In this document: positions 316 to 14,605 of the stretch, one piece after another
How the letters are laid out: every line of letters begins with the position of its first letter
How positions within the stretch are numbered: position 1 is the stretch's first letter
The notes under the pieces: generated by a model
What the model was told of the DNA's origin: nothing
Seen by the model: only the letters and a program-made list of their open reading frames with translations
Databases searched by the model: none
Position numbers and translations under genes: made by a program
IMG/VR virus record: IMGVR_UViG_3300020385_000799
Coordinates: 1-21,561 of that record
Reading direction: 5' to 3' (one strand)
From: a virus
DNA length: 21,561 nt

Positions 316-735
316 TTAACCCCTTACCGCTACGATTTCATAAGTGTATCCAGATATTTTTTGGGTTTGTATTTTTAAACCGTTTGCTTTCAGTATTCTA
401 GTTATATTCTTTAAAGAAGATATAGAATTACTTTGCTCAACAATTGCCCCAAATGAACGCTCGTCTATTTGTCCAGAAATAAGCTGCCTTGATAACACAT
501 TGCAATCCAAGCCTCTCAAACTAAGCTTACCGCCCAGTCTTATCTTTTTCAATAACGAAGCAAGGCTGCCTTCAAGCTGGCTAGATTTAAATTTATCTAC
601 AACTCCATTGGCTCTAATCTCTAAGCACTCTGAGTCAGATATGTCGAACATATTTATAAAACCGTCTTCATTTACAACTACAGCCTTGTATCCAGATATT
701 GCTTCTTCTGAATTTCCCACTATGTCTATTTTCAT
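316..735 (-). CDS. Methyltransferase-like small protein (function unproven)
   Basis: A 139-residue protein with an ATG start overlapping the stop of the upstream glycosyltransferase (ATGA). The central part (SLASLLKKIRLGGKLSLRG, about residues 57-75) resembles the late strand of class I SAM-dependent methyltransferases, where a kxLkpGGxLxi motif precedes the last strands. The following LDCNVLSRQLISGQID also fits small phage methyltransferase-like proteins found next to glycosyltransferases. The N-terminal glycine-rich SAM loop is not evident, so it may be a shortened or non-catalytic version. It sits at the end of the sugar-transfer operon, which suggests a role in glycan or nucleotide-sugar modification, but this is inference only. 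Confidence 0.65.
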   Translation of the reverse strand: MKIDIVGNSEEAISGYKAVVVNEDGFINMFDISDSECLEIRANGVVDKFKSSQLEGSLASLLKKIRLGGKLSLRGLDCNVLSRQLISGQIDERSFGAIVEQSNSISSLKNITRILKANGLKIQTQKISGYTYEIVAVRG

Positions 736-1718
736 TTTAAATCCTCGTATACTTTTCTAAAAATGCTGTTCCAACTATCTATGTACTTTTGCTCAGAAAA
801 TATATCTAGAACGGTTTCTCTAGCAGCTTTACCGATGCTAACTCTAAGAGCTTTATCGTCCAATAGTTGTTGGATATAACCTTTAAATTCTTCTTCATCG
901 TTTGTTAAAAAACCATTACGTCCATGCTCAATAAAGCTTGGTATAGAACATGTAGCCGTACTCACTACAGGTTTGCCACAAGACATAGCTTCAAGGATAG
1001 CTGTCGGCATCTGGCTTTCCGTAGTAGTGTTGACATAAACAGCGCACTTATTATATTCTTCTCTAAGATGCTCTAGTGAAGATGCAACCTTTGAAAGTCC
1101 CGGCGTATCACCAAGCACTTTTGCGTTGAAGCCATTAATTATACGCTGCCAGCCACTAAAATTCAAGCAATAATCTCTATTAACAAAATCATTTTGCACT
1201 GTAAATACTGTTTCGTCTGACTCTACTTCTATCGGTTTGAAAAATTCATGGTCAATAGAATTGCATATAACTGTTTCACCTTTGTCAAAACCCCAAGACT
1301 CTCTGGCGTATTCACTAATAAATACATTGTAGTCACCCCAAATGCTTTTAAACATCTGTAGCTGTTCGGGGGTATAATTTGAAGTTGGAATAGTGTGTTC
1401 AAGGTGTATGATCGGCAAACCTATTTGCTCCTGTATTTGCCTTGATATTTGCAGTTGACCAAATTTACTTTGAGATAATATAAAGTCAAAATCTATTTCA
1501 GGATACATATTTTCTATTGGATGGTAGTTTTCTGGAATCTTAGCGAAATCTTCATTCCAAACTTTGCAGTCTTGATATCTAAATGCATAAAAATTATGTC
1601 CTGTTTTTGCCATTTGCGATTGACATCGCTCATGAGTGTCAAAGCAAAGAATGTCTAACCTTTCTTTGTTCTTTGGTTTTATTGCTTTTTGAATAATTGA
1701 TTGTGAGCTATATGTCAT
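732..1718 (-). CDS. GT-B fold glycosyltransferase (GT4-like)
   Basis: A 328-residue protein that would transfer a sugar from a nucleotide-sugar donor, acting in the cytoplasm. The C-terminal domain shows the GT4 signature: TESQMPTAILEAMSCGKPVV near residues 233-252, followed by a terminal helix. The usual E-x7-E pair is imperfect. The second Glu (E243) is in place, but the first (E234) is one residue early, with Ser at the canonical position. The N-terminal half, with LEHTIPTSNYTP around residue 106, is a plausible acceptor domain. The basic donor-contact residues are not obvious. It overlaps the upstream glycosyltransferase by 11 bases and is one of three GT-B enzymes in a row. The acceptor (virion protein, DNA base or host surface glycan) cannot be told from the sequence. 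Confidence 0.87.
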   Translation of the reverse strand: MTYSSQSIIQKAIKPKNKERLDILCFDTHERCQSQMAKTGHNFYAFRYQDCKVWNEDFAKIPENYHPIENMYPEIDFDFILSQSKFGQLQISRQIQEQIGLPIIHLEHTIPTSNYTPEQLQMFKSIWGDYNVFISEYARESWGFDKGETVICNSIDHEFFKPIEVESDETVFTVQNDFVNRDYCLNFSGWQRIINGFNAKVLGDTPGLSKVASSLEHLREEYNKCAVYVNTTTESQMPTAILEAMSCGKPVVSTATCSIPSFIEHGRNGFLTNDEEEFKGYIQQLLDDKALRVSIGKAARETVLDIFSEQKYIDSWNSIFRKVYEDLK

Positions 1719-2841
1719 TTAACTGTTCCTTTAAAATACTTCCTACGTTTGCGTATGAGAATTTTTCTACCTGTTTTAGCCCAGCCACTCTGTTTCTTTG
1801 ACTGTAGCCGATTGGGTCATTGCCCCATGATTGATAGTATTTTCTCATCTGGTCTCTAATTTGCTTTTCGCATGGTTGGAACCAGTATTCTTTGGAGGTA
1901 AAAAGATCTGGAAACGCTGAGTCAACTGATTTACAGCAAGAGTAAACTCCATTCACAAGGGTTCCTGTTCTCCAATTTCCTTTGTCTATAAATTCACAAG
2001 GTCCGCCAAAGTTACTTGCTATTGGCGTATTGCCGAAAGCCATAGCTTCTAAAGTTGGAATACTCCAAGCCTCTCCGTGAGATGGGCATACAAAACAATC
2101 ACAATACTGATGTAAAGAAAACAAGTTGTCTTCGGGAAGCTTGTCTGTTATAATAACTTCCTGCTTATAGCTATTTCTTATTCTAAGCTTCTTTTTTATT
2201 TCAGTTATATATTCTACAACCTTAGAGTGTAACTCTTGGGGGCTTAGTCCAAACTTATTAAACTTTAATATTAGAGATACATTCTCATCTTCTTCAAACT
2301 CAGAATGAAAACAAGTCAAGATAGATTCTAGATTTTTTCTATCGTTAAAATCCCCAACGTAATAGAATTTAAATGTGTTTTCTGTTTGTGGAATAGAAAT
2401 TTCTCCGTAACGCTTTTTGTATTTCGACACATCGCAAGTGTGATGAATAACTTTTACGGGCGGTGTGATCTTATGCGACTCCAAACACTGCTTAGAAGTC
2501 TCATTAGCAACCCATACCTCATCCATCAAGTCCATTTGATAAAACCAATTCAAATGTTTTATATTTAAAGTTTCTGTTTCCATAAATGCTATGGTTTTCT
2601 TAAACTCGTCAGAGCCAACGTAATGATGAGGTAGGACATGCTGAATACAAATGTCACAACCTTTAGAATCTTTTTTTTCTAATTCTAAAATTCTTGGGTG
2701 AACATCCTGCTTGTCTTGAGTTAGTGTTACGTTTCTACAAACAACATCAACACCTACGCTGTCTAACGACAGTATATTGTCTGTTGCCGCTTGAGACCAG
2801 CCCCCAAACTCTTTATAATGTCCCAAATATAAAATTCGCAT
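1708..2841 (-). CDS. GT-B fold glycosyltransferase (GT4-like)
   Basis: A 377-residue enzyme counted from the ATG at 2841. A TTG two codons upstream is also in frame, but an AGAGG ribosome site sits about 7 bases before the ATG. The N-terminus MRILYLGHYKEFGGWS is a typical GT-B first strand with a glycine-rich loop. The donor domain holds YYVGDFNDRKN near residue 165 and a complete E-x7-E motif, HGEAWSIPTLEAMAFGNTPI, with Glu at about 257 and 265. These residues contact the nucleotide-sugar in GT4 enzymes. The start overlaps the end of the upstream methyltransferase by about 29 bases, consistent with coupled translation. Donor and acceptor are unknown. Confidence 0.92.
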   Translation of the reverse strand: MRILYLGHYKEFGGWSQAATDNILSLDSVGVDVVCRNVTLTQDKQDVHPRILELEKKDSKGCDICIQHVLPHHYVGSDEFKKTIAFMETETLNIKHLNWFYQMDLMDEVWVANETSKQCLESHKITPPVKVIHHTCDVSKYKKRYGEISIPQTENTFKFYYVGDFNDRKNLESILTCFHSEFEEDENVSLILKFNKFGLSPQELHSKVVEYITEIKKKLRIRNSYKQEVIITDKLPEDNLFSLHQYCDCFVCPSHGEAWSIPTLEAMAFGNTPIASNFGGPCEFIDKGNWRTGTLVNGVYSCCKSVDSAFPDLFTSKEYWFQPCEKQIRDQMRKYYQSWGNDPIGYSQRNRVAGLKQVEKFSYANVGSILKEQLNDI

Positions 2842-3472
2842 TCTCAACCTCTTTATAGTTTATATTTTTTGTCTTGTAAGATTTATACTTTTCATATATC
2901 TCTTTGTCAACCCACCAATCTTCTACTGGGCCGTATCCGTCTAGTACAACATCTGCGTAAAGAATTTCGTAACCTTGACCGCTTAACACTTCCCTGTAGT
3001 GATAATATTCTTTTTTTATCTTTTCTTTGTGTTCGTCATCATGACTTTGAAGTTCTATATCTTGCGATTGAAATAAATTATGCTCTAAAGTCAATACCTT
3101 AAACCTATATCTATCCCAATCAAACTCATTAAATACTTTTAATTGAGCGTCATCAACATCTAAAGATATATAATCTATAGCGTCTGGACAACCCAGAGAA
3201 CTCAAATGTTGATTTATGTTTACTTCTAATAAGTCTACACAGCTAACTTTACAAGTTCTTTTGTTTTTGACACGATTGTACCAACTCTCATCATAGTCTA
3301 TAGCAATACCTTTCCATCCTCTATATCTCTCAAAGAAATAAGTATTGCTGTAAAATTCTACAGGTCGCCCCGCAAGACCGCCAGTGCCAGCGCCTATGTC
3401 TAAGAAAAACCCTTCATTCTTCTGTAAAATTTTATTTACAAAAACATCTTGTTTTACTTGAGCGTTAAACAT
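2813..3472 (-). CDS. FkbM-type SAM-dependent methyltransferase
   Basis: A 219-residue protein from the ATG at 3472, which overlaps the TGA of the upstream glycosyltransferase as ATGA. An in-frame TTG one codon earlier is less likely. GFFLDIGAGTGG (about 23-34) is the SAM-binding loop. SNTYFFERYRGWKGIAIDYD follows, and then a DYISLDVDDAQ / LTLEHN pair. This order (sNtyflE..gWkGi.ie, SlDvDg, EhN) is characteristic of the FkbM family, which O-methylates sugars and other small groups. The family assignment is strong, the substrate is not. Placed between two glycosyltransferases, it probably caps or decorates the glycan they build. Confidence 0.88.
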   Translation of the reverse strand: MFNAQVKQDVFVNKILQKNEGFFLDIGAGTGGLAGRPVEFYSNTYFFERYRGWKGIAIDYDESWYNRVKNKRTCKVSCVDLLEVNINQHLSSLGCPDAIDYISLDVDDAQLKVFNEFDWDRYRFKVLTLEHNLFQSQDIELQSHDDEHKEKIKKEYYHYREVLSGQGYEILYADVVLDGYGPVEDWWVDKEIYEKYKSYKTKNINYKEVENANFIFGTL

Positions 3473-5154
3473 CAAGACTGTTGCCTCTGTTTTAACGTTT
3501 CAATTCTTTTCTGCTCCCATTGGTTTCTTCTATTGCACAGTCCTGACATTTGATCGTAAGCGATATCGTAATTAAACGGCTGTCTGCGATTCATTCCATC
3601 AAAAGCAGCAGAAGATTCATTAAAATACATACCACCGGTTGATGCGGTTGCTTGTTTGTATATTAAATCCCTTGTTAGCCTAGCTTCAAAAAAGGTGTTA
3701 AGCTTTTCTGGTTCTCTTAAAACGTCTGAAATCAAGTGTTTAGCAAGCTGCGTATTTGATATGGGTGCAGATTGTGAAAAGTCTATTTTTGGAGCTGGCT
3801 CTTGTATTCTAGCTTCAGAAGCCCACGTCTGCTCAAGTGGCAAAGCTTCAAAACTATCAAAGTATTTTTCCCACTGAGAGCCACTTAAATGCCATTGATA
3901 ATACTTCTCAAACATTTCTCTAGTATTTTTTCCAATAGAAGCTCTTTCTTCTTCTGATTTTGAAAAGAACTCTAAGAAAAGACTTGCCGCAGCATCGTTA
4001 TCTGGCACAGCACGTAGACATCCGGTTTCCAACTCCTTGTATAAAGCTTTAGGTTTAATCGGATAACCCTCTAGCTTCCTTAACACGCTTTCCATAGCCG
4101 AATAGTCCGTTCCGCAGACAGGCACTCCGCAGGCGGCAGCCTCTACTTGTGGTAAACCAAAACCTTCAGAATTTGCATACTGAGTAAATAGGTCAAAACA
4201 GTTTACCACATTAGATAATTCCTCATAACTAAGTCCATTTTTTACATTAGATAGCGTTGCTCCAAACCTACCAGTGTAAGGCGATTGAACCATAGCGCCT
4301 TTAAAAACAGAAGTAAATGGCTTTTTAGTCTCTGGGCAAATATAAGTAAATAATACCTTAGATCCAATTCCATGTTCGTTTAAAAGTTCAGGTATGTCCC
4401 AGCCTAAGTCTGGATAAGACGTATGGCAGTATAGGTAATAGTTTTTATCTTCTGATTTATCTAAAAATTTCTTAAATGCTTCAAACAAGTCTGGATATAG
4501 CTTGCGCCTTTGGTTTCTCATAACCGTGCCAATAATTTTACAGTCTGGGTCAAGACCCATAAGTTGCTTGTGTTTCCTCTTGTCTTGAGTGGGCTTGTAT
4601 GCAGGGTGAGCAGATGGGGGTGCGCTACCTAAATACTTAATCTTACCACCAGACTGATCTTGCAAAATACCACCCGCCCAATCTGAGTATGTTAGACAGG
4701 CATCTGCACTTGTGTAGGTTGCAACCCATTGTCTTGCTTGAGGTCTAGCGTCAACCGTTGGCATGATAGCCCATTTAAAATAAGGTCTAAATGGAGATCG
4801 TTCAGCAAAATCTAGCATCCAAAAGTCACGAATATCGCACACCACATCTGGCATAAAATCTAGACAGACATGCTCAAAAATCCATTCTCCAAACTGAGAT
4901 GAAGGAGTAGCATTATAAGAGTCTAGTTCTTGCTGAGAAGCTTTTGGTTCGCTTTGTTGATTAGGCACTACGCCGTAGTATGTCCAAGGAATGTTAGCTG
5001 CCCTTGGGTCATTTCTCTCTCCGTAGGCTGCCAACTCTGCTAGTTCATATTTACCAGTAGAATGTAAATAATTTAATATTTCCCTAGTATATGTAGCGTA
5101 CCCTGTGTTTAGAAATGTAGCTTCACTGCAAAACAGAATTCTTTTTTTTCTCAT
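3472..5154 (-). CDS. Large GT-B glycosyltransferase with C-terminal extension
   Basis: At 560 residues it is the longest glycosyltransferase here. The N-terminal domain starts RILFCSEATFLNTGYATYTRE, with a glycine/threonine acceptor loop. The donor domain has IGTVMRNQRRKLYPDLFEAF (about 208-227), in which the RNQRRK stretch fits the usual R/K donor contacts. A clear E-x7-E motif, NSEGFGLPQVEAAACGVPVC, has E330 and E338. Between them, residues 243-320 contain a YCHTSYPDLGWD...YICPETKKPF segment that may be a small cysteine-bearing insert. About 120 residues follow the catalytic core (from about 440) with no recognised domain; they may serve oligomerisation or acceptor docking. It starts one base after the SSB gene and opens the glycan cluster. 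Confidence 0.92.
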   Translation of the reverse strand: MRKKRILFCSEATFLNTGYATYTREILNYLHSTGKYELAELAAYGERNDPRAANIPWTYYGVVPNQQSEPKASQQELDSYNATPSSQFGEWIFEHVCLDFMPDVVCDIRDFWMLDFAERSPFRPYFKWAIMPTVDARPQARQWVATYTSADACLTYSDWAGGILQDQSGGKIKYLGSAPPSAHPAYKPTQDKRKHKQLMGLDPDCKIIGTVMRNQRRKLYPDLFEAFKKFLDKSEDKNYYLYCHTSYPDLGWDIPELLNEHGIGSKVLFTYICPETKKPFTSVFKGAMVQSPYTGRFGATLSNVKNGLSYEELSNVVNCFDLFTQYANSEGFGLPQVEAAACGVPVCGTDYSAMESVLRKLEGYPIKPKALYKELETGCLRAVPDNDAAASLFLEFFSKSEEERASIGKNTREMFEKYYQWHLSGSQWEKYFDSFEALPLEQTWASEARIQEPAPKIDFSQSAPISNTQLAKHLISDVLREPEKLNTFFEARLTRDLIYKQATASTGGMYFNESSAAFDGMNRRQPFNYDIAYDQMSGLCNRRNQWEQKRIETLKQRQQS

Positions 5155-5525: not shown

Positions 5526-7073
5526 CTATATTTCATGTATTTTATTGATAATAAATGAATTATTTTTATCAGTCTTTCCACAAAGCAGTAAATTGTTGTT
5601 CTCAAAAAGTATATATTGGTATTTTTCTCTAGTTTCTGGAAATACAACCACACTATCCAACGAACACGTTTCGTCTTCTATGGTTAAAAAGCTCATCATC
5701 TTGCCGTTTTTACATTTGTGATCTGCAACTCTGTTTACACTAGCTGCCACGCAAAGAGTTTCACCTTTTTTTCCGTCTAGTATTTCTTTACAGCTAGTAT
5801 TTGCAGAAGACGTGTCTGACGATTCAATCCTAGAGATTGAAATTGGACAACCTAAAAACTTAATTTCTTGCTCAACAACCCAAGACGGATCATCTGAAAG
5901 TTCATAGGGTGGATTTTCTAGAAAACAAATCTCATTTTTTACATCTTCACTGCGAGAAATTTTACTTGTGCCGCCACCTTGCTTTTTTGTAGGCGCTAAG
6001 TCCGTAAAACATTCTGTCAGCGTTTTCCATTTTTTAGATTTGTAGTTTTCTGTAACCCACTTTATTTCAGCTTTTGTTAAGTTTTTAAATATCAAGTATT
6101 CGTATAGCGCTTTATTTCTGCTGATACCCGTTTTCTTGGTAGAGAAGAACCCTATGGAACACAGAGCCTTAAAGCCAGTTGAGTTAATTTTTGTAGACAA
6201 ATATATAAGTATATCCATCCAAGTAAAGTTAGCTGGTCTTTTATTTATCTGTTCACTTGTATCGTTTATGGCATTGATAACCTTATCGCCATTAACACCA
6301 GTCAACGACTTTACATTTTTAATTCCAAAGTATATACCTTTATCAGTAATAAAAAATTCCTCTGACCATTCTGACAGCTTTGGAATTTTCACCTCAAGGT
6401 CAAAAAGCTTCGCTTCTGAAACAAGCTCGTAGACTTCTTGGTGAGGATCTTGCTTTTCATTTGCGTACATTAGGTAAGACAGAAAGAACTCTTTAGTGTG
6501 ATTAGCTTTATACCAAGCGCTCAAGTATGAGTTCATGGCGTAAGCGACAGCGTGACTTTTATTGAAAGAATATCTAGCGGACTTCTCAATCCAACCAAAG
6601 ATTTCATCCGCAGTTGCTTCGTCTACGGTTTTAAGCCTCTTACAGCCTGATATGAAGTCTTTTCTAACCCTAGCCATAAGATCGGCTTTCTTCTTTCCAA
6701 TTGCCTTACGAAGCACGTCAGCCTCTTGCAGATTAAATCCAGCAATCTTTTGGGCGATACGCATACACTGTTCTTGATAAATCAAAACGCCATAAGTCGG
6801 TTCAAGAATATCCTTTAGAGATTCATGTAGGTATGACACCTCTTCGACCTTGTGTTTTCTATCAACATAGTGCTGGCTCATAGACTTACCGTCAGTGATT
6901 GCTTTAAGACAACCCGGACGTAGAATACTAATCAATGCAGCAAGATCTTCCAAATTTTTAGGCTTGACTTTCTTTGACCAAGAGCGACCAAGGTTACTCT
7001 CTAACTGAAAGATTCCTTTGGTTCTACCTTCCTCAAATAAATCCCAAGCTTTTTCATCATTATAATCAATCAT
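5526..7073 (-). CDS. dnaE: DNA polymerase III alpha, C-terminal half (fingers, later domains, OB fold)
   Basis: This 515-residue gene begins exactly where the fingers domain of a bacterial Pol III alpha begins. IDYNDEKAWDLFEEGRTKGIFQLES aligns with the E. coli stretch ending in AVFQLES. LRPGCLK, DILEPTYGVLIYQEQCMRIAQKIAGF, ADVLRKAIGKKK and YSFNKSHAVAYA follow in the normal order. The last about 100 residues (FLGCPISISRIES, then FLTIEDETCSLDSVVVFPETREKYQ) are the OB-fold domain. The tau-binding C-terminal domain of E. coli DnaE is absent. No catalytic aspartates are here; they are in the partner gene at 8064-9611. The start ATG overlaps the endonuclease VII-like gene by 8 bases. The FNKSH site, where cyanobacterial split DnaE inteins sit, is uninterrupted. 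Confidence 0.93.
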   Translation of the reverse strand: MIDYNDEKAWDLFEEGRTKGIFQLESNLGRSWSKKVKPKNLEDLAALISILRPGCLKAITDGKSMSQHYVDRKHKVEEVSYLHESLKDILEPTYGVLIYQEQCMRIAQKIAGFNLQEADVLRKAIGKKKADLMARVRKDFISGCKRLKTVDEATADEIFGWIEKSARYSFNKSHAVAYAMNSYLSAWYKANHTKEFFLSYLMYANEKQDPHQEVYELVSEAKLFDLEVKIPKLSEWSEEFFITDKGIYFGIKNVKSLTGVNGDKVINAINDTSEQINKRPANFTWMDILIYLSTKINSTGFKALCSIGFFSTKKTGISRNKALYEYLIFKNLTKAEIKWVTENYKSKKWKTLTECFTDLAPTKKQGGGTSKISRSEDVKNEICFLENPPYELSDDPSWVVEQEIKFLGCPISISRIESSDTSSANTSCKEILDGKKGETLCVAASVNRVADHKCKNGKMMSFLTIEDETCSLDSVVVFPETREKYQYILFENNNLLLCGKTDKNNSFIINKIHEI

Positions 7074-7416
7074 TATTTTCTCTCAAATATTCCATAGCTC
7101 TTTGTAAAATGTCTGGATCATCGTGAAGTAGCCCTATTCCAGAATTACAAGACGTACAAATATAGCCCCTGAATTTTAAACTGGCATGACAGTGGTCTAA
7201 AACCCATCTATCTGTTTCCGAGTTGCAGATCCTACAAACACCCGGAGGAGGAACTGGATTCTCAATTCTTAACTTCTTTCTGATATCTGATTGCTGCTTA
7301 TGACACTTCTTGCATCTATTTCTAGTAGCTCTATGTTTACCATCAGCTTTTACAAATTCAGAATCAGGTTTAGTTTCCTTGCAGGTTTTACAGGTTTTAT
7401 AGGTAAGTGTTCCCAT
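7066..7416 (-). CDS. Endonuclease VII-like (His-Me finger) nuclease between the two polymerase halves
   Basis: A 116-residue protein from the ATG at 7416, supported by AAAGG about 10 bases upstream; a TTG six codons earlier is possible. It has four CxxC pairs (Cys 9/12, 35/38, 61/64, 87/90). The core WVLDHCHASLKFRGYICTSC followed by NSGIGLLHDDPDIL matches the phage T4 recombination endonuclease VII family: the D-H-x-H pair carries the catalytic His, flanked by zinc CxxC pairs. The typical tail (lq.A..YL) is present. The family resolves branched DNA, and relatives also act as mobile nicking or homing enzymes. It overlaps the exonuclease end by 20 bases and the polymerase C-half start by 8, inside a split dnaE, which raises the homing possibility. 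Confidence 0.88.
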   Translation of the reverse strand: MGTLTYKTCKTCKETKPDSEFVKADGKHRATRNRCKKCHKQQSDIRKKLRIENPVPPPGVCRICNSETDRWVLDHCHASLKFRGYICTSCNSGIGLLHDDPDILQRAMEYLRENND

Positions 7417-8071
7417 CTGCGAATGCCTTTTCAAGTTTTAGGTTTCTGTAAACAGCACGATGTGTCTTCATAAACTTAATCATTAGATTGGCCGTATCCT
7501 TAACGTCCTGTAGGGCATCGTGAGCATTATCTTTTGACATTCCCATTCTGTCTCTAATGGTATCCATACTTCTAGATTTTATACTAGGGTCGCCTTCTGT
7601 CCACATCCAATAGTTGTCCATCATGTCAACTTTATACACTTGACTAAACAACTTTTGGCCCTGTCTAGACTCATCCCAAGGTCCATACTCTTTGCAAAAC
7701 CTATTTACCAAAACCATATCGTATCCTATAATGTTATACCCTGCCGGAATGGGGGCAAAAAACGGGGTTCCCTTCCAATTATACTTGTTTACAAAGTTGC
7801 AAAACTTTGACCATACAGCTTTTGGTTTAGGGGCTTTAGATATTTCCTCTCTAGTCTTTCCTGTGACTTTTAAAGCGCCGTCTTCAATCGGACCTAAACC
7901 TTTTTTGGTAGCCTTGTCGTCATCTGTTTCTGCCCATATTTCACTGTTAAAAGTGCCTTTAAGTTTAAAGTTTCTACCATCCAAAGCTAATGCCGCCAAT
8001 TGGGTGGCTTGGCAAGTATGTGGATTTCTACCACCTGTCTCAAAGTCAAATACAATTATATCTCTATTCAT
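7397..8071 (-). CDS. DnaQ-like DEDDh 3'-5' exonuclease (probable proofreading subunit)
   Basis: A 224-residue exonuclease with all five catalytic residues visible: D9 and E11 in IVFDFETGG (Exo I), D118 in AGYNIIGYDMVLVNRF (Exo II), and H184 and D189 in NAHDALQDVKDTANLM (Exo III, H-x4-D). This is the DEDDh class used by the Pol III epsilon subunit. It starts within the last 8 bases of the polymerase N-half, so translation is probably coupled, and it precedes the polymerase C-half. The obvious role is proofreading for the split Pol III alpha. A general 3'-5' exonuclease for DNA or RNA cannot be excluded. No clamp-binding peptide was identified with certainty. Confidence 0.92.
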   Translation of the reverse strand: MNRDIIVFDFETGGRNPHTCQATQLAALALDGRNFKLKGTFNSEIWAETDDDKATKKGLGPIEDGALKVTGKTREEISKAPKPKAVWSKFCNFVNKYNWKGTPFFAPIPAGYNIIGYDMVLVNRFCKEYGPWDESRQGQKLFSQVYKVDMMDNYWMWTEGDPSIKSRSMDTIRDRMGMSKDNAHDALQDVKDTANLMIKFMKTHRAVYRNLKLEKAFADGNTYL

Positions 8072-9611
8072 TTAATATTTCCTTTATTTTCATTACCTTG
8101 TCAAGAGTGGATAATCCTAGCACATCAAATTTAACGTGACCAAGCGCTTCTAGATCTGACATTTCTAGTCCAGCGATTTTTTCATCTGCGTTTTTTTGGG
8201 TAGCCATAGGGCAAACTTTGTGTAGTGGCTCTGCTGAGATAACAACGCCCGCAGCATGTTTACCCTGAGTTTTGAAAGTTCCTTCTATCTTAATTGCTTT
8301 ATCAAACATGTCAGCGTAATCACCTTCTAGCTGCCCTTCTTCGTTAACAAAACAATACCCTCTTAGTTCTTCTGGGTTGTTTATCAAAGCCCACTTAATA
8401 ATAGACCTCTCGTCGTCATCCATTTGTGATAATTGATCTGATATGTCTGCTTCGTTTGGTATAACTTTTGTGATTTCATTCATTTCCGAAAATCCACACG
8501 CTTGATAAACCCTAAGCACTTCTTTCAAAGCGCTTCTTCCTTGCAGTCTACCGAATGTGAGCATCTGACTAACTCTTTCTGTTCCGTAAGTTTTACGAAG
8601 ATAATCAATAACTTCATCTCGTTTCCCGGCAGGAACGTCCATGTCAATGTCAGGAAGAGAAACGTTGCCGTCAGTATTTCTACCAGAGTTATAGAATCTT
8701 TCAAAGATTAAATCAAACTTTACCGGATCTACTTGAGTAACACCAATAAGGTAAGAAATTAAACAGCCAGCGGCAGAGCCTCGACCGGGACCAGCCATCC
8801 AACCTTGATTTTCCACATGGCGAATAATATCACTAACAATTAGAAAGTAACCAAATAGATTAGCTTGTTTAATAACCTCAAATTCTTTGTTAAATCTTTC
8901 CCCATACAAGTCCCACTTGTCGTCACCTTTTTTAATATCTCTACCTAGCTTTTCGCTCCATCCCTTTCTGGCTAGCTTGCGTAGGTAATCTTCTTCGGAC
9001 TGACCGTTGGGACACGGGAATGTAGGAAGCATTGGATTGTTAAGAATATCATATTGCTCACACTCTTCTAGTATGTCGTCAAATTGCGTTGTTTTAACAG
9101 AAAGATCTTTAAGATAAAAATTATCTTTGTTAAAAAACTTTTGCAGAGATGTATCTTTAGCTTTCTCTTTAGCGTTTGACATGGTACACTTTAGATTAGA
9201 ACACAATAGAACCCTATGGAGTTCTGCGTCTTCTTTTTGCACATAGTAAGACTCTGGAAAATCTTTGTTGGGTTTTACTTTAAATAGATTTTTACTTTTA
9301 ATAGACTTTGCTAAAAGCTTGGCGTCTACTTCGTCATTTTGAATTGACGACACAAGTTCTATAAGTTCGTACCAGCCGTCTTTGTTTTTTGCAAACAAAC
9401 TGAAGCCATCAAAGCTACAGCCAATGATCGGCATGATGTTATTTTTCTTACAAGCTAAGTAAAAAGATACAGCGCCAGAGATACTTTTGTAGTCAGCTAT
9501 GCCGCAAGCTTTGTATCCGCGAATCTTGCACTCTGAAACAAGTTCGTCTGGCTTAGAAAACGCACGAAGAAGTGAATAGTGCGTGTAGTTACACAACGGG
9601 AACCAAGTCAT
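8064..9611 (-). CDS. dnaE: DNA polymerase III alpha, N-terminal half (degenerate PHP, palm, thumb)
   Basis: A 515-residue protein from the ATG at 9611, with an AAAGGAA site about 7 bases before it; a TTG one codon upstream is less likely. It opens like a PHP domain (FPLCNYTHYSLLRAFSKPDEL), but the histidines of the usual HxHxxYS signature are Pro and Tyr. The region up to the palm is also shorter than in E. coli. The palm follows: AGPGRGSAAGCLISYLIG, SLPDIDMDVPAGKRDEV (catalytic D323 and D325) and HVKFDVLGLSTL (catalytic D496, equivalent to E. coli D555). The protein ends 18 residues after that aspartate, at the palm/fingers boundary. Fingers and OB domains are in the gene at 5526-7073. All three metal-binding aspartates are present, so activity is expected when paired. 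Confidence 0.93.
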   Translation of the reverse strand: MTWFPLCNYTHYSLLRAFSKPDELVSECKIRGYKACGIADYKSISGAVSFYLACKKNNIMPIIGCSFDGFSLFAKNKDGWYELIELVSSIQNDEVDAKLLAKSIKSKNLFKVKPNKDFPESYYVQKEDAELHRVLLCSNLKCTMSNAKEKAKDTSLQKFFNKDNFYLKDLSVKTTQFDDILEECEQYDILNNPMLPTFPCPNGQSEEDYLRKLARKGWSEKLGRDIKKGDDKWDLYGERFNKEFEVIKQANLFGYFLIVSDIIRHVENQGWMAGPGRGSAAGCLISYLIGVTQVDPVKFDLIFERFYNSGRNTDGNVSLPDIDMDVPAGKRDEVIDYLRKTYGTERVSQMLTFGRLQGRSALKEVLRVYQACGFSEMNEITKVIPNEADISDQLSQMDDDERSIIKWALINNPEELRGYCFVNEEGQLEGDYADMFDKAIKIEGTFKTQGKHAAGVVISAEPLHKVCPMATQKNADEKIAGLEMSDLEALGHVKFDVLGLSTLDKVMKIKEILNE

Positions 9612-9628
9612 CAATATTTCCTTTCAAT

Positions 9629-10011: not shown

Positions 10012-11127
10012 CTACCATGCTCGACAAGACCAGTAACGTGCTTTCCAACGAGGGCCGGGGTTAGAGCAGTTATGTCTTGCTCTAAAGTTCTTTCGACGGC
10101 CCGGAATATTCTTTTTGATTTTCATGTTTGGATCACCAAACCTTACGATTACCACTTTCCCTGATCCATTCTTTACATACACTGCGCTTTTCTTTGGACC
10201 TCCGGGGGTTTTGAAGGGTTTGCCAAGCTTTACTTTTCGACCCTGATACTCTGCTGACTCTGTATAGTCCAGCTCTGCCTTGCCTTTGTATACTAAAAAT
10301 CTATCGTCTTTTTTGTAAATTCCTTTTCGTTCGTATTTGTAAAGCTGTCCGGTTTTTGGGTCTTCGTACTCGAAACCTGCAATAGCTTCACCTTTGCTAG
10401 ATCGCTTGTGACTAGAAGGTAGAAGGTCGTTGTCTGTAGTATATTTCGGATTTGAAGGAGTTCCTGTTCTAAGCAACTTTAGAAAAGCGTTTACTCTAGC
10501 GATTGCCCATCCATGACGACTCATTTTGGGTGCATGGCTAGTAGAGAAAGCGCCAGCGCCACGGCGATATACTGCTTTAAGCATACCTAGTGTAGCTTTA
10601 GAGCCTTTACCTTTAGCGTTGTGTTCTTTAACCTTTGCTGAAAGTTGAGCAGTTACTTCCTTACTAAACGTGACTTTACCTGAGCCATCTTTTGCGCTGT
10701 CGGGTTTATTCTTTTTAGAGCCTTTCTTTTGGTCTTTCTTGGGAGCTGGAGTTCTGCGTGGATCTTTTGGTCCCGGTTTGTCAGCTTCAGCATGATCTGC
10801 GTAGGTGAGATACTCATCAGACTGAGCGCGTTTTAGCTGATCTTGAGTTGGTCTTCCTTCTTTTTCAGTTTTAGCAGGCTTGTAATTTTTTCCTTGTTTT
10901 TGTTTCTTTCTGCGGATGTTCTCCCAGAGGCCGGGACGATCTGCCGCCCAGTTCCACTCTTCTGTTTCTTCTCCTACGTCTTCATATTCCGCTTCTGCTG
11001 GAACATAAAAATTTTCTTCTGTAATTTCTTCTGTCCAACCATGTTCATCCATATCAAAACCTAAGTTTTTATTATAATGTAAGGATTGGTCAATATCAAA
11101 AACGTAATCTTTTTTGGGGTCAGACAT
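10012..11127 (-). CDS. Composite phage protein with three recurrent viral motifs (possible virion or capsid-associated protein)
   Basis: A 371-residue protein with an acidic N-terminus and a very basic remainder. Three segments look like motifs that recur in large-phage and other large-virus proteins: RPGLWENIRRKKQKQGK to EGRPTQDQ (about 64-96); ATLGMLKAVYRRGAGAFSTS to RHGWAIARVNAFL (about 178-216); and a C-terminal Arg/Cys/Trp-rich tail, RFGDPNMKIKKNIPGRRKNF followed by RARHNCSNPGPRWKARYWSC (about 329-368). These assignments come from memory of such proteins. I know no proven function for them; packaging into the virion is a guess. The low-complexity Lys/Pro/Gly linker at 115-150 separates motifs 1 and 2. 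It starts one base inside the stop of the PAP2 gene. Confidence 0.8.
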   Translation of the reverse strand: MSDPKKDYVFDIDQSLHYNKNLGFDMDEHGWTEEITEENFYVPAEAEYEDVGEETEEWNWAADRPGLWENIRRKKQKQGKNYKPAKTEKEGRPTQDQLKRAQSDEYLTYADHAEADKPGPKDPRRTPAPKKDQKKGSKKNKPDSAKDGSGKVTFSKEVTAQLSAKVKEHNAKGKGSKATLGMLKAVYRRGAGAFSTSHAPKMSRHGWAIARVNAFLKLLRTGTPSNPKYTTDNDLLPSSHKRSSKGEAIAGFEYEDPKTGQLYKYERKGIYKKDDRFLVYKGKAELDYTESAEYQGRKVKLGKPFKTPGGPKKSAVYVKNGSGKVVIVRFGDPNMKIKKNIPGRRKNFRARHNCSNPGPRWKARYWSCRAW

Positions 11128-11801
11128 TATCTGCTCCTATGAATTTGTAAATTTGGAAATAACTTATATCTAACATCTTGCCAAATAGCTCCAGATATTA
11201 CCATAGAAGCTTCATTGTCAGAAGGGTAATGAACTCCTTGTAAACATCTAGCTAGTCCAGCAAGATTTATCATCTTAAAAAATTCAGAAGAATAATTTGG
11301 ATACATATCGGCAAAGAGGTACGCACCCAATGCAGCGTAAGCAGTGTGTCCAGAAGGATACGCTGGAGTGTGATGGGTTTTTGTCTCTACTACCTCTATT
11401 TTAAAATTCAAAGCTTCTGATAACTGTTTAGGTCTTGGTCTATTAAACTTATGTTTTAAATTCAAGATTACTGACTTTGAAATCTTCCATATCTTTTCAA
11501 GATCTTTTTTTGGCACAGGTTGACCAATCTTATTAAAGATAGGTTTGAATAGGTCTATAGGATCTTTGTCAACTAAGTTTATTAGATTTTTGTCTTCATA
11601 ACTTAAATTGTTTGTTATTTTCTCTAAGTAAGCAAGTTCTTTTTTTGTTTGCTCAGACGTATTTTTTGGAGGGTCTGGCAAAACACCTTGCCAATCTATT
11701 GTCAAAATATTATTTACCTTCCAAGTTTTTGGCTTGTCTGTATAAACAATAGAATCTAATCTTGACGAAATAGATTTATTTATTTCTGATATTATATCCA
11801 T
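11127..11801 (-). CDS. PAP2-superfamily phosphatase (acid phosphatase / vanadium haloperoxidase fold)
   Basis: A 224-residue protein carrying the three PAP2 motifs: K116-x6-R123-P124 in KHKFNRPRP, P149-S-G-H152 in AYPSGHTAYAALGAYLFADM, and R185-x5-H191 with D195 in ARCLQGVHYPSD. H152 and H191 are the expected catalytic base and phospho-acceptor. No signal peptide and no transmembrane helices are evident, so it resembles the soluble acid-phosphatase and haloperoxidase branch rather than membrane lipid phosphatases. The N-terminal 100 residues are not recognised. It overlaps its neighbours by single bases (TAATG) and sits directly after genes for exported proteins. Dephosphorylation of lipid, sugar or nucleotide phosphates is possible; the substrate is unknown. 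Confidence 0.88.
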   Translation of the reverse strand: MDIISEINKSISSRLDSIVYTDKPKTWKVNNILTIDWQGVLPDPPKNTSEQTKKELAYLEKITNNLSYEDKNLINLVDKDPIDLFKPIFNKIGQPVPKKDLEKIWKISKSVILNLKHKFNRPRPKQLSEALNFKIEVVETKTHHTPAYPSGHTAYAALGAYLFADMYPNYSSEFFKMINLAGLARCLQGVHYPSDNEASMVISGAIWQDVRYKLFPNLQIHRSR

Positions 11802-12094
11802 TATCTTCTGTAGTTAAAGTAATAGTTTACGGGTGGCTGATAACCATTATAGTAATTAAAGGTAGTAACCTGCGGGATGCTGTAGAACTGCGCGTTAACA
11901 CCTACCGTTACTGTTCTTCTGTATGGATCAACATATGCTCCATTGATGTTTAAAGTTGTACCTTGTGGTAGCCATACAACGTGCGGTTGATAGCCAACAA
12001 CTCTTCGTTGACCCCAAGGCCACTGAGCCGAAGCTGTATCACACATGACACAAAAACAAAACACTGCAACAAGTCCTGCGATTAAATTCTTCAT
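11801..12094 (-). CDS. Small secreted protein, planctomycete-like
   Basis: A 97-residue protein with a Sec signal peptide: MKN, a hydrophobic core LIAGLVAVFCFCVMCDTA, then a likely AXA cleavage site at about residue 23 (ASAQ). The mature part is rich in Tyr, Val and Asn, with YQPHVVWLPQGTTLNINGAY followed by VDPYRRTVTVGVNAQFYSIP and VTTFNY. That pattern (pV.wLPeGT.l...a.vs.drR.V.v.......i..v.tF.f) resembles small exported proteins common in planctomycetes, as I recall them; this needs a search. Its ATG overlaps the TGA of the DUF1501 gene. It may act in the periplasm or at the surface, but no function is known. Confidence 0.78.
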   Translation of the reverse strand: MKNLIAGLVAVFCFCVMCDTASAQWPWGQRRVVGYQPHVVWLPQGTTLNINGAYVDPYRRTVTVGVNAQFYSIPQVTTFNYYNGYQPPVNYYFNYRR

Positions 12095-13320
12095 GCTATA
12101 TCCTTTAAAATATTTTTAGAATCTTCTTTTACGATACTATGAGGTCTGCCATCCGTAGCAGTGTATCGCGTTGGTTTCATCATATCCAGATGGTCATAAA
12201 TAGTCCAAGCCAAATCCTCCGGTCCACATCTGCCTTGGTCAAAGTCGTCTGCGTTAGGGCTTGACGCTCCAATGGTGCGTCCCATTTCATAGCTACCACA
12301 ACTAATCATTAGCGGTGCTAGTTTACCAAAGTGATCTCTACCTTGATTTTGATTTACTTTTGGGGTTCTGCCAAACTCGGAAGTAACCACAAGCATAACA
12401 CGTTCATACATACCTCTAGCTTCTAGGGTATCCATAATCTTACCAAGATAATGATCTAGCTCTACTTGTTTTGTAGATAGTGCTTGACCAATATTTGTGT
12501 GCATGTCCCAACCGCCATAACTTAATGAGACAAACTTAGAGCCAGCTTCTAGCAATCTAATTGCAGTAAGGGCATCCTGCCCTAAAGTCGCTTCCTTGAA
12601 CTTATCATAGTCTTTATCATTTTCAAAACGAAAAGCTTTTGAGCCATTGCCCAAGATAATATCAACAGATTGATTACGAAGATCGCTCCAGTCTTTTGCC
12701 ATCTGTTGTTTTTTAGCGATAAAATTACCATCAATTACATTAAGGGCATGAAGTCTACGTTTGAAATCATCACTCTTACCAAGTAGCTGTAAGTCTTTAC
12801 GACCTTCTCTAGTAGCATCAAATCCTGTGTATTTTCCGCCAAGCCAAGCCGCCCCATTGTGGTCGTAAGATCCTAGCTTAACGTATGTAGGCAATCCATC
12901 GTCTGTGTTTACACCGTGATGCTTGCTCATCATAGAGCCGTAGCTGGGCCATTTAGAGCTTGTTCCAGCCCCAAAGTTTGCTTCACCTGTAACAACCCAG
13001 TGAACAGCAGATGCGTGATTTTGATCTCTGTGACCAAACGATCTAGGGATTGCAATTTTATCTGTACGCTTAGACACTTCTTTAAACAAACCGCCTAGCT
13101 CTACGCCTGCGACATTTGTTTTAGTAGCACCTGTTACAGATCGCCTGTCAGCAGGAGCAAATGGTACAGGATTAAAAGTCTCAATATGAGAAGCCCCACC
13201 GCCAAGAAAAAGGAACAATACTGCGGTATCGTCCTTCTTTTTGTCGTCGGCGTAAGTCGCTGTGATATTTCCGTAAGCAAAAGTAGTTGCTCCTAATTTA
13301 ACAAAATCTCTTCTTTTCAT
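12091..13320 (-). CDS. DUF1501 protein with Tat signal, alkaline phosphatase/sulfatase-like fold
   Basis: A full-length 409-residue DUF1501 protein. The N-terminus KRRDFVK fits the twin-arginine consensus, followed by a weakly hydrophobic stretch and a possible cut after TYA (residue 24), so export to the periplasm is expected. Family motifs appear in order: GGGASHIETFNP (40-51), SFGHRDQNHASAVHWVVTGE (94-113), SYGGWDMHTNIG (267-278), VVTSEFGRTPKVN (311-323) and GRDHFGKLAPLM (327-338). These Asp/His/Glu positions fit the alkaline phosphatase superfamily, though no reaction is established for DUF1501. The family is very abundant in Planctomycetes, usually beside DUF1549/DUF1553 genes, which are absent here. 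The RR start shares 23 bases with the upstream small Tat gene. Acquisition from the host is inferred. Confidence 0.93.
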   Translation of the reverse strand: MKRRDFVKLGATTFAYGNITATYADDKKKDDTAVLFLFLGGGASHIETFNPVPFAPADRRSVTGATKTNVAGVELGGLFKEVSKRTDKIAIPRSFGHRDQNHASAVHWVVTGEANFGAGTSSKWPSYGSMMSKHHGVNTDDGLPTYVKLGSYDHNGAAWLGGKYTGFDATREGRKDLQLLGKSDDFKRRLHALNVIDGNFIAKKQQMAKDWSDLRNQSVDIILGNGSKAFRFENDKDYDKFKEATLGQDALTAIRLLEAGSKFVSLSYGGWDMHTNIGQALSTKQVELDHYLGKIMDTLEARGMYERVMLVVTSEFGRTPKVNQNQGRDHFGKLAPLMISCGSYEMGRTIGASSPNADDFDQGRCGPEDLAWTIYDHLDMMKPTRYTATDGRPHSIVKEDSKNILKDIA

Positions 13321-13335: not shown

Positions 13336-13563
13336 TTAGCTCGCGGCGAAACCGGCAACAACGTCTTCATATATACATCTAGGCACAGACGCAAATTCGT
13401 CGAGGCAAAGGGGCTGATTCCACTCACATCTATAACCTCTGATATCCTCTCCAGTCAGAGTCTCCAACTGTGCATTACTAGGTTCTAGTTCTAAAGAGTC
13501 TCTAACTAAAGCAGTGCCAAGACAAGCTGCTGACAGACCCCTTATAAAATCTCTTCTTTTCAT
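13336..13563 (-). CDS. Small Tat-signal protein, unknown function
   Basis: A 75-residue protein that starts MKRRDFIRGLSAACLGTALV, a textbook twin-arginine signal (RR-D-F, then a short hydrophobic region). A signal peptidase site is possible near SNA at about residue 31. If cut there, the mature part is only about 44 residues, with three cysteines (46, 53, 63) and a C-terminal GFAAS. The first 18 coding bases equal those of the next gene, also a Tat protein, 15 bases downstream of its stop. I recognise no homologous family. It could be the remnant of a larger Tat protein, a partner of the DUF1501 protein, or an independent small exported protein; the intact signal and ribosome site argue against pure decay. 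Confidence 0.72.
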   Translation of the reverse strand: MKRRDFIRGLSAACLGTALVRDSLELEPSNAQLETLTGEDIRGYRCEWNQPLCLDEFASVPRCIYEDVVAGFAAS

Positions 13564-13568
13564 AATAT
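13546..13568. repeat. 23-bp direct repeat, copy 2 (start of small Tat gene)
   Basis: Identical to 13303-13325 and in the same position relative to a start codon. It overlaps the last base of the stop codon of the RecB/Cas4-like nuclease gene at 13568. Confidence 0.85.
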
Positions 13569-14605
13569 CATCCCGGCGCTTCGTAGTAACCTATTGAAAA
13601 CCCTTCTTTAGTACAATCTTTGATGGTTTGGTCCATCCCGTCTTTTTTTAACTTCTTCTCTATAAATATACACATTTTTTCGTCAGTTCCGGGCCAATTG
13701 TTTTTATAAAAGTGACACAACCTCTGACATTTGAAGCTAGACCTGTCCGATCTTATCGGTTTAGGTAGTACATTATCACGTATATCTTCAAATCGTTTCT
13801 TCAACATTCCTAAGAATCTTTTCTCGTCTTCTGGCCCAAGACAGATACTAAACGGCATTGGGTCAACCTTGCCATCTTTATCTTTATAAAAGAAAATACT
13901 CATAATCCTGTTTGGAAAATCTTTATATATTTTTGATATAGCGTAAAAATACAACAGCAACTGAGGGTCGTTTTCTAGTTTTTTGTAATCTTTTACTTGA
14001 CCCGTGGTCCAATCCATCCTGCGGCCACTTTTCCAGTCAACAACTTCAATTGTATCGTCTGAAATCAGTGTTGTCAAGTCAATAGTACCTTTGATTGCTA
14101 ATTGACCTTTTACGATCTCTCCATCAATTTCATATTCAAATTTAGCCCAATCTTCTTCAATTGGTATGTCAAACTGAGCTTCTGGATGGTAAATATTTCT
14201 TTGTCTAGGGTCAAAAAGACTGTCTGAATGGTTAAGGAAAGTAAATACCGTATCCCTGACAACCTTTCTGTCTCCCTTTGTAAAGTTATGAATTGATCCT
14301 TTTGCGTAATCAGTAACTGCTAGTTCGCACATTCTCTCCACAAAATCATCTGTATACAATTCATCTTTAGTTATTCTTATTTTACCACACTTGTCGTCTT
14401 CAATAACTAAGTATTTTCTCTTAGGGTTGTCTTGTTGAAATTTCTTTAACCCCGCTAAGATTTCCATAACCTTGTGCGCCATAGTTCCTAAATCTGCTTT
14501 TTTATTACTATCAGATCTATAACCTAGAACATAAGTTAAGAAATATTGCATTTGGCAGAAGTCATAATTGTTGTAACTTGACGATCTAATATAAGTGACT
14601 ATCAT
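13568..14605 (-). CDS. RecB/Cas4-like PD-(D/E)XK nuclease with candidate Fe-S cysteines
   Basis: A 345-residue nuclease. SSSYNNYDFCQMQYFLTYVL opens it, GTMAHKVMEIL gives the early conserved His (44), and IKGTIDLTT...TIEVVDWKSGRRMDW supplies D176, D190 and K192 of the PD-(D/E)XK site; QLLLYFYAI follows as the usual QxxxY-type helix. Cys17 plus Cys293, 297 and 312 (KCQRLCHFY...KMCIF) resemble the one-plus-three cysteine arrangement of 4Fe-4S nucleases such as AddB and Cas4. This cluster is inferred. In phages such enzymes process DNA ends for recombination or degrade host DNA. It overlaps the kinase gene by one base (TAATG) and belongs to the replication block. Confidence 0.88.
   Translation of the reverse strand: MIVTYIRSSSYNNYDFCQMQYFLTYVLGYRSDSNKKADLGTMAHKVMEILAGLKKFQQDNPKRKYLVIEDDKCGKIRITKDELYTDDFVERMCELAVTDYAKGSIHNFTKGDRKVVRDTVFTFLNHSDSLFDPRQRNIYHPEAQFDIPIEEDWAKFEYEIDGEIVKGQLAIKGTIDLTTLISDDTIEVVDWKSGRRMDWTTGQVKDYKKLENDPQLLLYFYAISKIYKDFPNRIMSIFFYKDKDGKVDPMPFSICLGPEDEKRFLGMLKKRFEDIRDNVLPKPIRSDRSSFKCQRLCHFYKNNWPGTDEKMCIFIEKKLKKDGMDQTIKDCTKEGFSIGYYEAPG

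Follow-up and report, generated by a model that had tools for sequence, protein, structure and literature searches.

The window analysed here, a stretch of 21,561 bases that makes up a complete IMG/VR virus record, carries an intact DUF1501 gene which, judging from its relatives, is an old and long-resident viral gene; we hold its family identity and its residence in a phage to be practically certain. Its product is predicted to adopt the alkaline-phosphatase-superfamily fold, and an invariant histidine appears to replace the nucleophile of that superfamily. We favour, at somewhat less than an even chance for the explanation as a whole, a long-resident phage DUF1501 with a Tat-type signal that would supplement the DUF1501/haem-c system of the host envelope.

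An intact DUF1501 gene with a twin-arginine start

A sequence-only reading of the window had described an intact member of the DUF1501 family, and both the extent of the gene, exact at 12091-13320, and the Pfam search bear this out. The open reading frame starts with ATG and runs without an internal stop, and residues 32-405 of the protein (374 residues) match PF07394 (DUF1501) with an E-value of 7.1e-54 and 183.9 bits, against a curated cut-off of 27, covering positions 2-387 of the 390 in the profile. All of the family motifs listed in that reading (GGGASH, NH, GGWDMH, SEFGRTP, and GRDH) are found in the protein.

The twin-arginine start that had also been proposed is retained well beyond the window. 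The N-terminus, MKRRDFVKLGATTFAYGNITATYADD, shows the twin-arginine pattern, with MKRRDFVKLGA fitting the Tat consensus, and RRxF is kept in nearly all viral relatives (R3 in 132, R4 in 134, and F6 in 130 of 137, i.e. about 95%); of 383 viral ORFs of the DUF1501 family, 369 have a comparable motif near their start. As the window protein received no score from the curated Tat model of NCBIfam, we treat export through the host Tat system as a prediction, though a sound and probable one.

Table 1. Features of the DUF1501 gene, its product, and its surroundings in the window.
Feature	Position	Strand	Evidence
DUF1501 protein gene	12091..13320	minus	409 aa, intact ORF, PF07394, AF2 model
Twin-arginine-type signal region, residues 1-29, MKRRDFVKLGATTFAYGNITATYADDKKK	13234..13320	minus	RRxF conservation; pLDDT <50 in model
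E47 codon, always acidic (D/E), proposed metal ligand	13180..13182	minus	Conservation
H102 codon, inferred nucleophile position, 9 before TG	13015..13017	minus	144/144; start of helix 102-111; motif spacing
D272-M-H274 codons, proposed metal-1 ligands	12499..12507	minus	D272 and H274 in 144/144
E315-F316-G317-R318 codons, counterpart of sulfatase Asp-His-Gly-Arg	12367..12378	minus	Alignment to GDHGRA of S1_8A sulfatase
R328-D329-H330 codons, H330 proposed third metal-1 ligand	12331..12339	minus	R328 and H330 in 144/144
Small protein, 97 aa, Sec-type signal	11801..12094	minus	ATGA overlap with DUF1501; recurrent neighbour
PAP2-superfamily phosphatase, without clear signal peptide	11127..11801	minus	PF01569 E 1e-13; 15 loci
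DUF5824 / phrog_7595 protein	10012..11127	minus	Frequent neighbour downstream of DUF1501
75-aa ORF with its own Tat-like start	13336..13563	minus	Tat model matches below threshold
Cas4-like exonuclease, upstream marker of the conserved DUF1501 position	13568..14605	minus	phrog_69
Surface-glycan type block: three glycosyltransferases and FkbM methyltransferase	316..5154	minus	Far end of the window from the side of the replication genes

The gene lies in a packed phage operon

The packed phage operon described from the sequence is readily recognised (Table 1). The DUF1501 gene overlaps the next gene by 4 bases (ATGA), replication genes lie near, and further upstream are genes for a dNMP kinase, a primase, and a DnaB-like helicase. 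ORFs related to the 97-aa protein with a Sec-type signal occur at 13 loci, in nine of them directly downstream of DUF1501. The 75-aa ORF directly upstream is found only in the window virus and a near-identical contig (L001/L023), and it is not itself recognisable as a remnant of DUF1501.

The surface-glycan type block of the window has a longer counterpart in a relative of 72 kb (contig G009, with locus L029), where the same arm extends to NeuB, cytidylyltransferase, DegT, FdtA, PIG-L, and an NAD-dependent epimerase/dehydratase; from its gene content, this extended arm has the make-up of a surface-glycan pathway. The NeuB-family synthase of the 72-kb relative stands within a long surface-glycan biosynthesis block (L341 12169-19797 and L342 540-12261).

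On the minus strand of the window, DNA polymerase III alpha (5526-9614) is split in two ORFs, with the PHP/NTPase part at 8064-9614 and the finger part at 5526-7073, and between them lie a DnaQ-like exonuclease and an endonuclease VII-like ORF. Relatives retain the split polymerase, with the insert absent or different. No tRNAs were found in the window or in two relatives.

Long residence of DUF1501 in viruses

Carriers of viral DUF1501 are many uncultured aquatic phages. Within IMG/VR, relatives of the window DUF1501 were found at 21 loci by a protein scan and at 72 by an alignment scan, with identities of 43-100%, and scans with more distant members returned at least 80 loci each. The surroundings of the gene recur: in 28 of 68 loci a Cas4-like exonuclease is found no more than three genes upstream, and many have DUF5824, PAP2, or the small signal protein on the downstream side. 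Since the same gene order is met in many independent contigs, the window is not a chimera, a concern that the sequence-only reading had raised. Terminase was found in 27 of the 48 DUF1501 contigs tested (at or above the curated cut-off in 20), including carriers of the haem-c pair described below (e.g. G047, G059, and G063), and hence these contigs are phages.

DUF1501 also occurs in quite different phage backbones (L003-L005, L008, and L012), and it is better conserved than the replication genes near it. As an example, the DUF1501 of locus L002 is 96% identical to that of the window, whereas its helicase, exonuclease, primase, and dNMP kinase are at 49-76%. The DUF1501 DNA of L007 is 96-97% identical to that of L008 and L009 despite differing flanks, which indicates that the gene is occasionally exchanged between phage backbones. 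In another phage group (L073, L076, L077, L078, L079, and L080) DUF1501 has an nrdA-like gene on one side and an nrdB-like gene on the other.

Among twelve distinct full-length relatives, dN ranges from 0.02 to 0.11 while dS goes from about 0.5 to saturation, except in the nearest pairs, and dN/dS of viral DUF1501 is about 0.04, a pattern indicative of strong purifying selection over a long time. At 0.315, the gene has the same GC3 as the neighbouring phage genes. With 56 viral representatives but only seven bacterial references in the tree, the window falls in a clade of 19 rows, all of them viral (SH-aLRT 100), and the sequences nearest to its DUF1501 are all viral. Of the bacterial sequences, six share a separate clade with six contigs from IMG/VR, while the remaining one is a long branch among viral rows; L153 and L176 are IMG/VR contigs that group with the bacterial sequences. 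The claim that the gene is virus-borne is thus upheld by its conserved gene order, its viral-only clade, and its phage-like GC3, and we consider it very unlikely that the window is a chimeric assembly or that its gene was captured recently.

Known phages offered few counterparts. No DUF1501 match was obtained among 50,697 phage records, and among isolated phages no carrier was found, with at most one weak partial match; a weak DUF1501 match in a 61-aa ORF is mentioned in one paper on a Pseudomonas phage. Our literature search found nothing relevant on DUF1501 in phages or on haem proteins of the kind described below in phages. BFVD/UniProt holds one phage DUF1501 protein, A0A6J5M742 from an uncultured Caudovirales phage, so that phage-borne DUF1501 as such is already on record; it shares the fold of the window protein but is longer (489 aa), and the two are 11% identical where their structures align. 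When 84,980 species genomes were scanned by pattern, only two contigs came up, both binned with one Lokiarchaeota MAG (Hel_238_bin13). Their DUF1501 proteins (L092 and L093) are 92% and 79% identical to that of the window, and given that five sampled relatives of this MAG are without DUF1501, the two are probably viral contigs within the Lokiarchaeota bin.

Predicted fold and candidate active site

From a diverse alignment of 137 sequences, AF2 produced a model of the window protein with a mean pLDDT of 88.9 and a pTM of 0.88, in which residues 1-29 are unresolved (pLDDT <50); it supersedes a model built with only 14 close viral sequences (pLDDT 33.5). Structural comparison placed NPP phosphodiesterase and sulfatase chains best, with Z-scores of about 19-20.6 over about 250 residues; 503 of 1000 chains reached a Z-score of at least 8 against the model, and Foldseek E-values went down to 2.4e-7. 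The Phosphodiest Pfam match of the protein is weak and below the curated cut-off, and sequence search returned no solved structures of DUF1501 relatives. One tandem phage DUF1501 gave a weak cross-match, also below the curated cut-off, to HXXSHH/DUF1552 (PF07586), perhaps a sister family of DUF1501; the window protein gave no match to PF07586.

We assessed residue conservation in 144 sequences (137 viral and 7 bacterial). Eight residues are identical in all of them (H102, D272, H274, D289, F316, R318, R328, and H330), and positions 47 and 315 are always D or E in viral and bacterial sequences alike. As in NPP phosphodiesterases and S1 sulfatases, D/E47, D272, H274, E315, and H330 follow each other in the order expected of metal ligands. 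Two differences from these enzymes stand out. In a PDB profile search EFGRT was aligned with the DHGRA of sulfatase S1_8A, so that DUF1501 has Glu-Phe where metal site 2 of the sulfatase has Asp-His. The other concerns the nucleophile, which is Thr, Ser, or formylglycine-Cys in those enzymes and whose position would hold His in DUF1501. In sulfatase motifs the formylglycine Cys lies nine residues before Thr-Gly, at the start of a helix, and the NPP threonine likewise lies nine residues before Thr-Gly at a helix start. In the model, H102 is the first residue of helix 102-111, and the only Ser/Thr/Cys columns conserved to at least 90% are T111 (of the TG motif), T319, S/T353, and T373, none of them at the position of H102. 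Profile-profile alignment matched 15 sulfatases with a probability of 95.5% (phosphodiesterases 17%) but was uninformative near the nucleophile, and the assignment of H102 therefore rests on motif spacing and helix start. Judged from the bacterial as well as the viral sequences, these active-site differences belong to DUF1501 generally and reach beyond the viral branch alone.

The window had been said to encode an alkaline phosphatase/sulfatase-like protein. This label is right for the predicted fold (Z about 20), yet it is unsupported for catalysis, because DUF1501 has no conserved Ser/Thr/Cys nucleophile and has Glu-Phe in place of the metal-2 Asp-His.

Compared with bacterial DUF1501, the window protein shares the PF07394 match, the twin-arginine start, and the residues that are invariant in seven plasmid-borne members. 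It is only 24-27% identical to the plasmid-borne members found and is shorter (409 aa versus about 480 aa), it has the motif ETFNP where they have (D/E)xxDxK, and, unlike them, it has no DUF1549/DUF1553 neighbour and groups with viral sequences.

Tandem copies and haem-c partners in other phages

Viral DUF1501 comes in three arrangements: alone, as in the window; as two to four tandem copies; or beside a DUF1549/DUF1553 protein. Four tandem genes are present in L301 (533-6209) and L310 (800-6206), in both cases between replication genes of the kinds that adjoin the single copy of the window (exonuclease and polymerase genes in L301), and the whole contigs G084, G086, and G087 have four DUF1501 genes each.

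The third arrangement resembles the planctomycete-type pair of DUF1501 and DUF1549/DUF1553 (PSCyt2/PSD1), haem-c motif included. The partner was found in 40 of the 85 phage contigs tested (3/35 in one search and 37/50 in another), and Pfam confirmed both of its domains in four phage partners. Each of the 65 partner ORFs found by sequence search, some of them from overlapping loci, has CxxCH once or twice, the motif that marks covalently bound haem c, and those inspected start with Sec-type signals. Phage DUF1549/DUF1553 proteins with CxxCH adjoin DUF1501 in L206 (7382-9169), L179 (2945-4987), L113 (4245-5972), and others, on contigs of up to 225 kb.

The sequence-only reading had remarked on the lack of DUF1549/DUF1553 partners. 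This stands for the window virus and its clade, in which no PF07587 partner was found on contigs of up to 180 kb, but not for phages generally. No DUF1553 domain was found in the window record, which may be a fragment; where the planctomycete-type system has a pair, the window virus has DUF1501 alone, beside the small Sec-signal protein and the PAP2 gene. Among the bacterial reference DUF1501 genes, six of seven lie directly beside a DUF1553/PSD1 gene. In verrucomicrobia, PSCyt/PSD genes neighbour sulfatase and carbohydrate genes, and the function of bacterial PSCyt/PSD is unknown (PMC5615132).

Possible roles during infection

In the explanation that we favour, the phage DUF1501 would reach the periplasm through the Tat system of the host, bind one or two metals, and cooperate there with DUF1549/DUF1553 haem-c proteins of the host. 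Its substrate would be envelope- or glycan-linked, and its chemistry would be other than that of a classical phospho- or sulfo-enzyme intermediate. A host partner is proposed because six of the seven bacterial genes adjoin DUF1553/PSD1, because such pairs exist in phages, and because of the PSCyt/PSD neighbours described in PMC5615132; as neither the window virus nor its clade has a partner gene, dependence on the host for it is assumed. We tentatively propose that, in infection, the DUF1501/DUF1549-DUF1553 envelope system of the host may be supplemented or redirected by the copy from the phage, alongside the phage surface-glycan genes.

The protein could instead be a genuine phosphatase, phosphodiesterase, or sulfatase that frees periplasmic phosphate or sulfate for phage DNA synthesis, as other phage nutrient-acquisition genes do, with the adjoining PAP2 serving the same end. 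The superfamily fold with its NPP and sulfatase matches, the sub-threshold Phosphodiest hit, and the PAP2 gene found in the same cluster at 15 loci all fit such a hydrolase; a His at the inferred nucleophile position, with no conserved Ser/Thr/Cys there in 144 sequences, and Glu-Phe for the metal-2 Asp-His do not, and PAP2 is often absent, so that we deem it unlikely. An envelope protein with weak catalysis or none, acting in superinfection exclusion or receptor masking, would agree with the genome arm shared with surface-glycan genes, with the tandem copies of some phages, and with the mosaic exchange of DUF1501 between backbones. Such a role seems distinctly improbable to us: an exclusion protein would be expected to evolve fast, but dN/dS is about 0.04 and the metal-type residues do not vary, which points to conserved chemistry.

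Two further readings deny the protein a place in the host envelope or a phage function altogether. A place in the virion would agree, though only indirectly, with DUF1501 being conserved in the manner of a structural gene; against it, the Tat motif is retained in nearly all members and the gene lies in the replication arm, apart from the tail genes, and we give this reading very little weight. That the gene came from a host only recently, through assembly or transduction, and has no phage function might be suspected from the abundance of DUF1501 in planctomycete-type bacteria and from the few IMG/VR contigs, such as L153 and L176, that group with bacterial sequences. It is contradicted for the window by the gene order recurring in many independent contigs, and saturated dS, phage-like GC3, and the purely viral clade leave it hardly any credit.

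The broadest form of our proposal is that a broad range of aquatic phages, including contigs of more than 200 kb, carry a virally diversified planctomycete-type DUF1501/DUF1549-DUF1553 system in three forms, in which DUF1501 would be a metalloenzyme with His where the superfamily has its nucleophile, acting with its haem-c partner on envelope glycans; in this full extent we find it rather doubtful. If true, the haem-c proteins and tandem DUF1501 arrays of phages would reveal viruses acting on an envelope system of their hosts that is not yet understood. The compact phage DUF1501 of the window, strongly selected and without a partner, offers a small and tractable protein for finding the activity.
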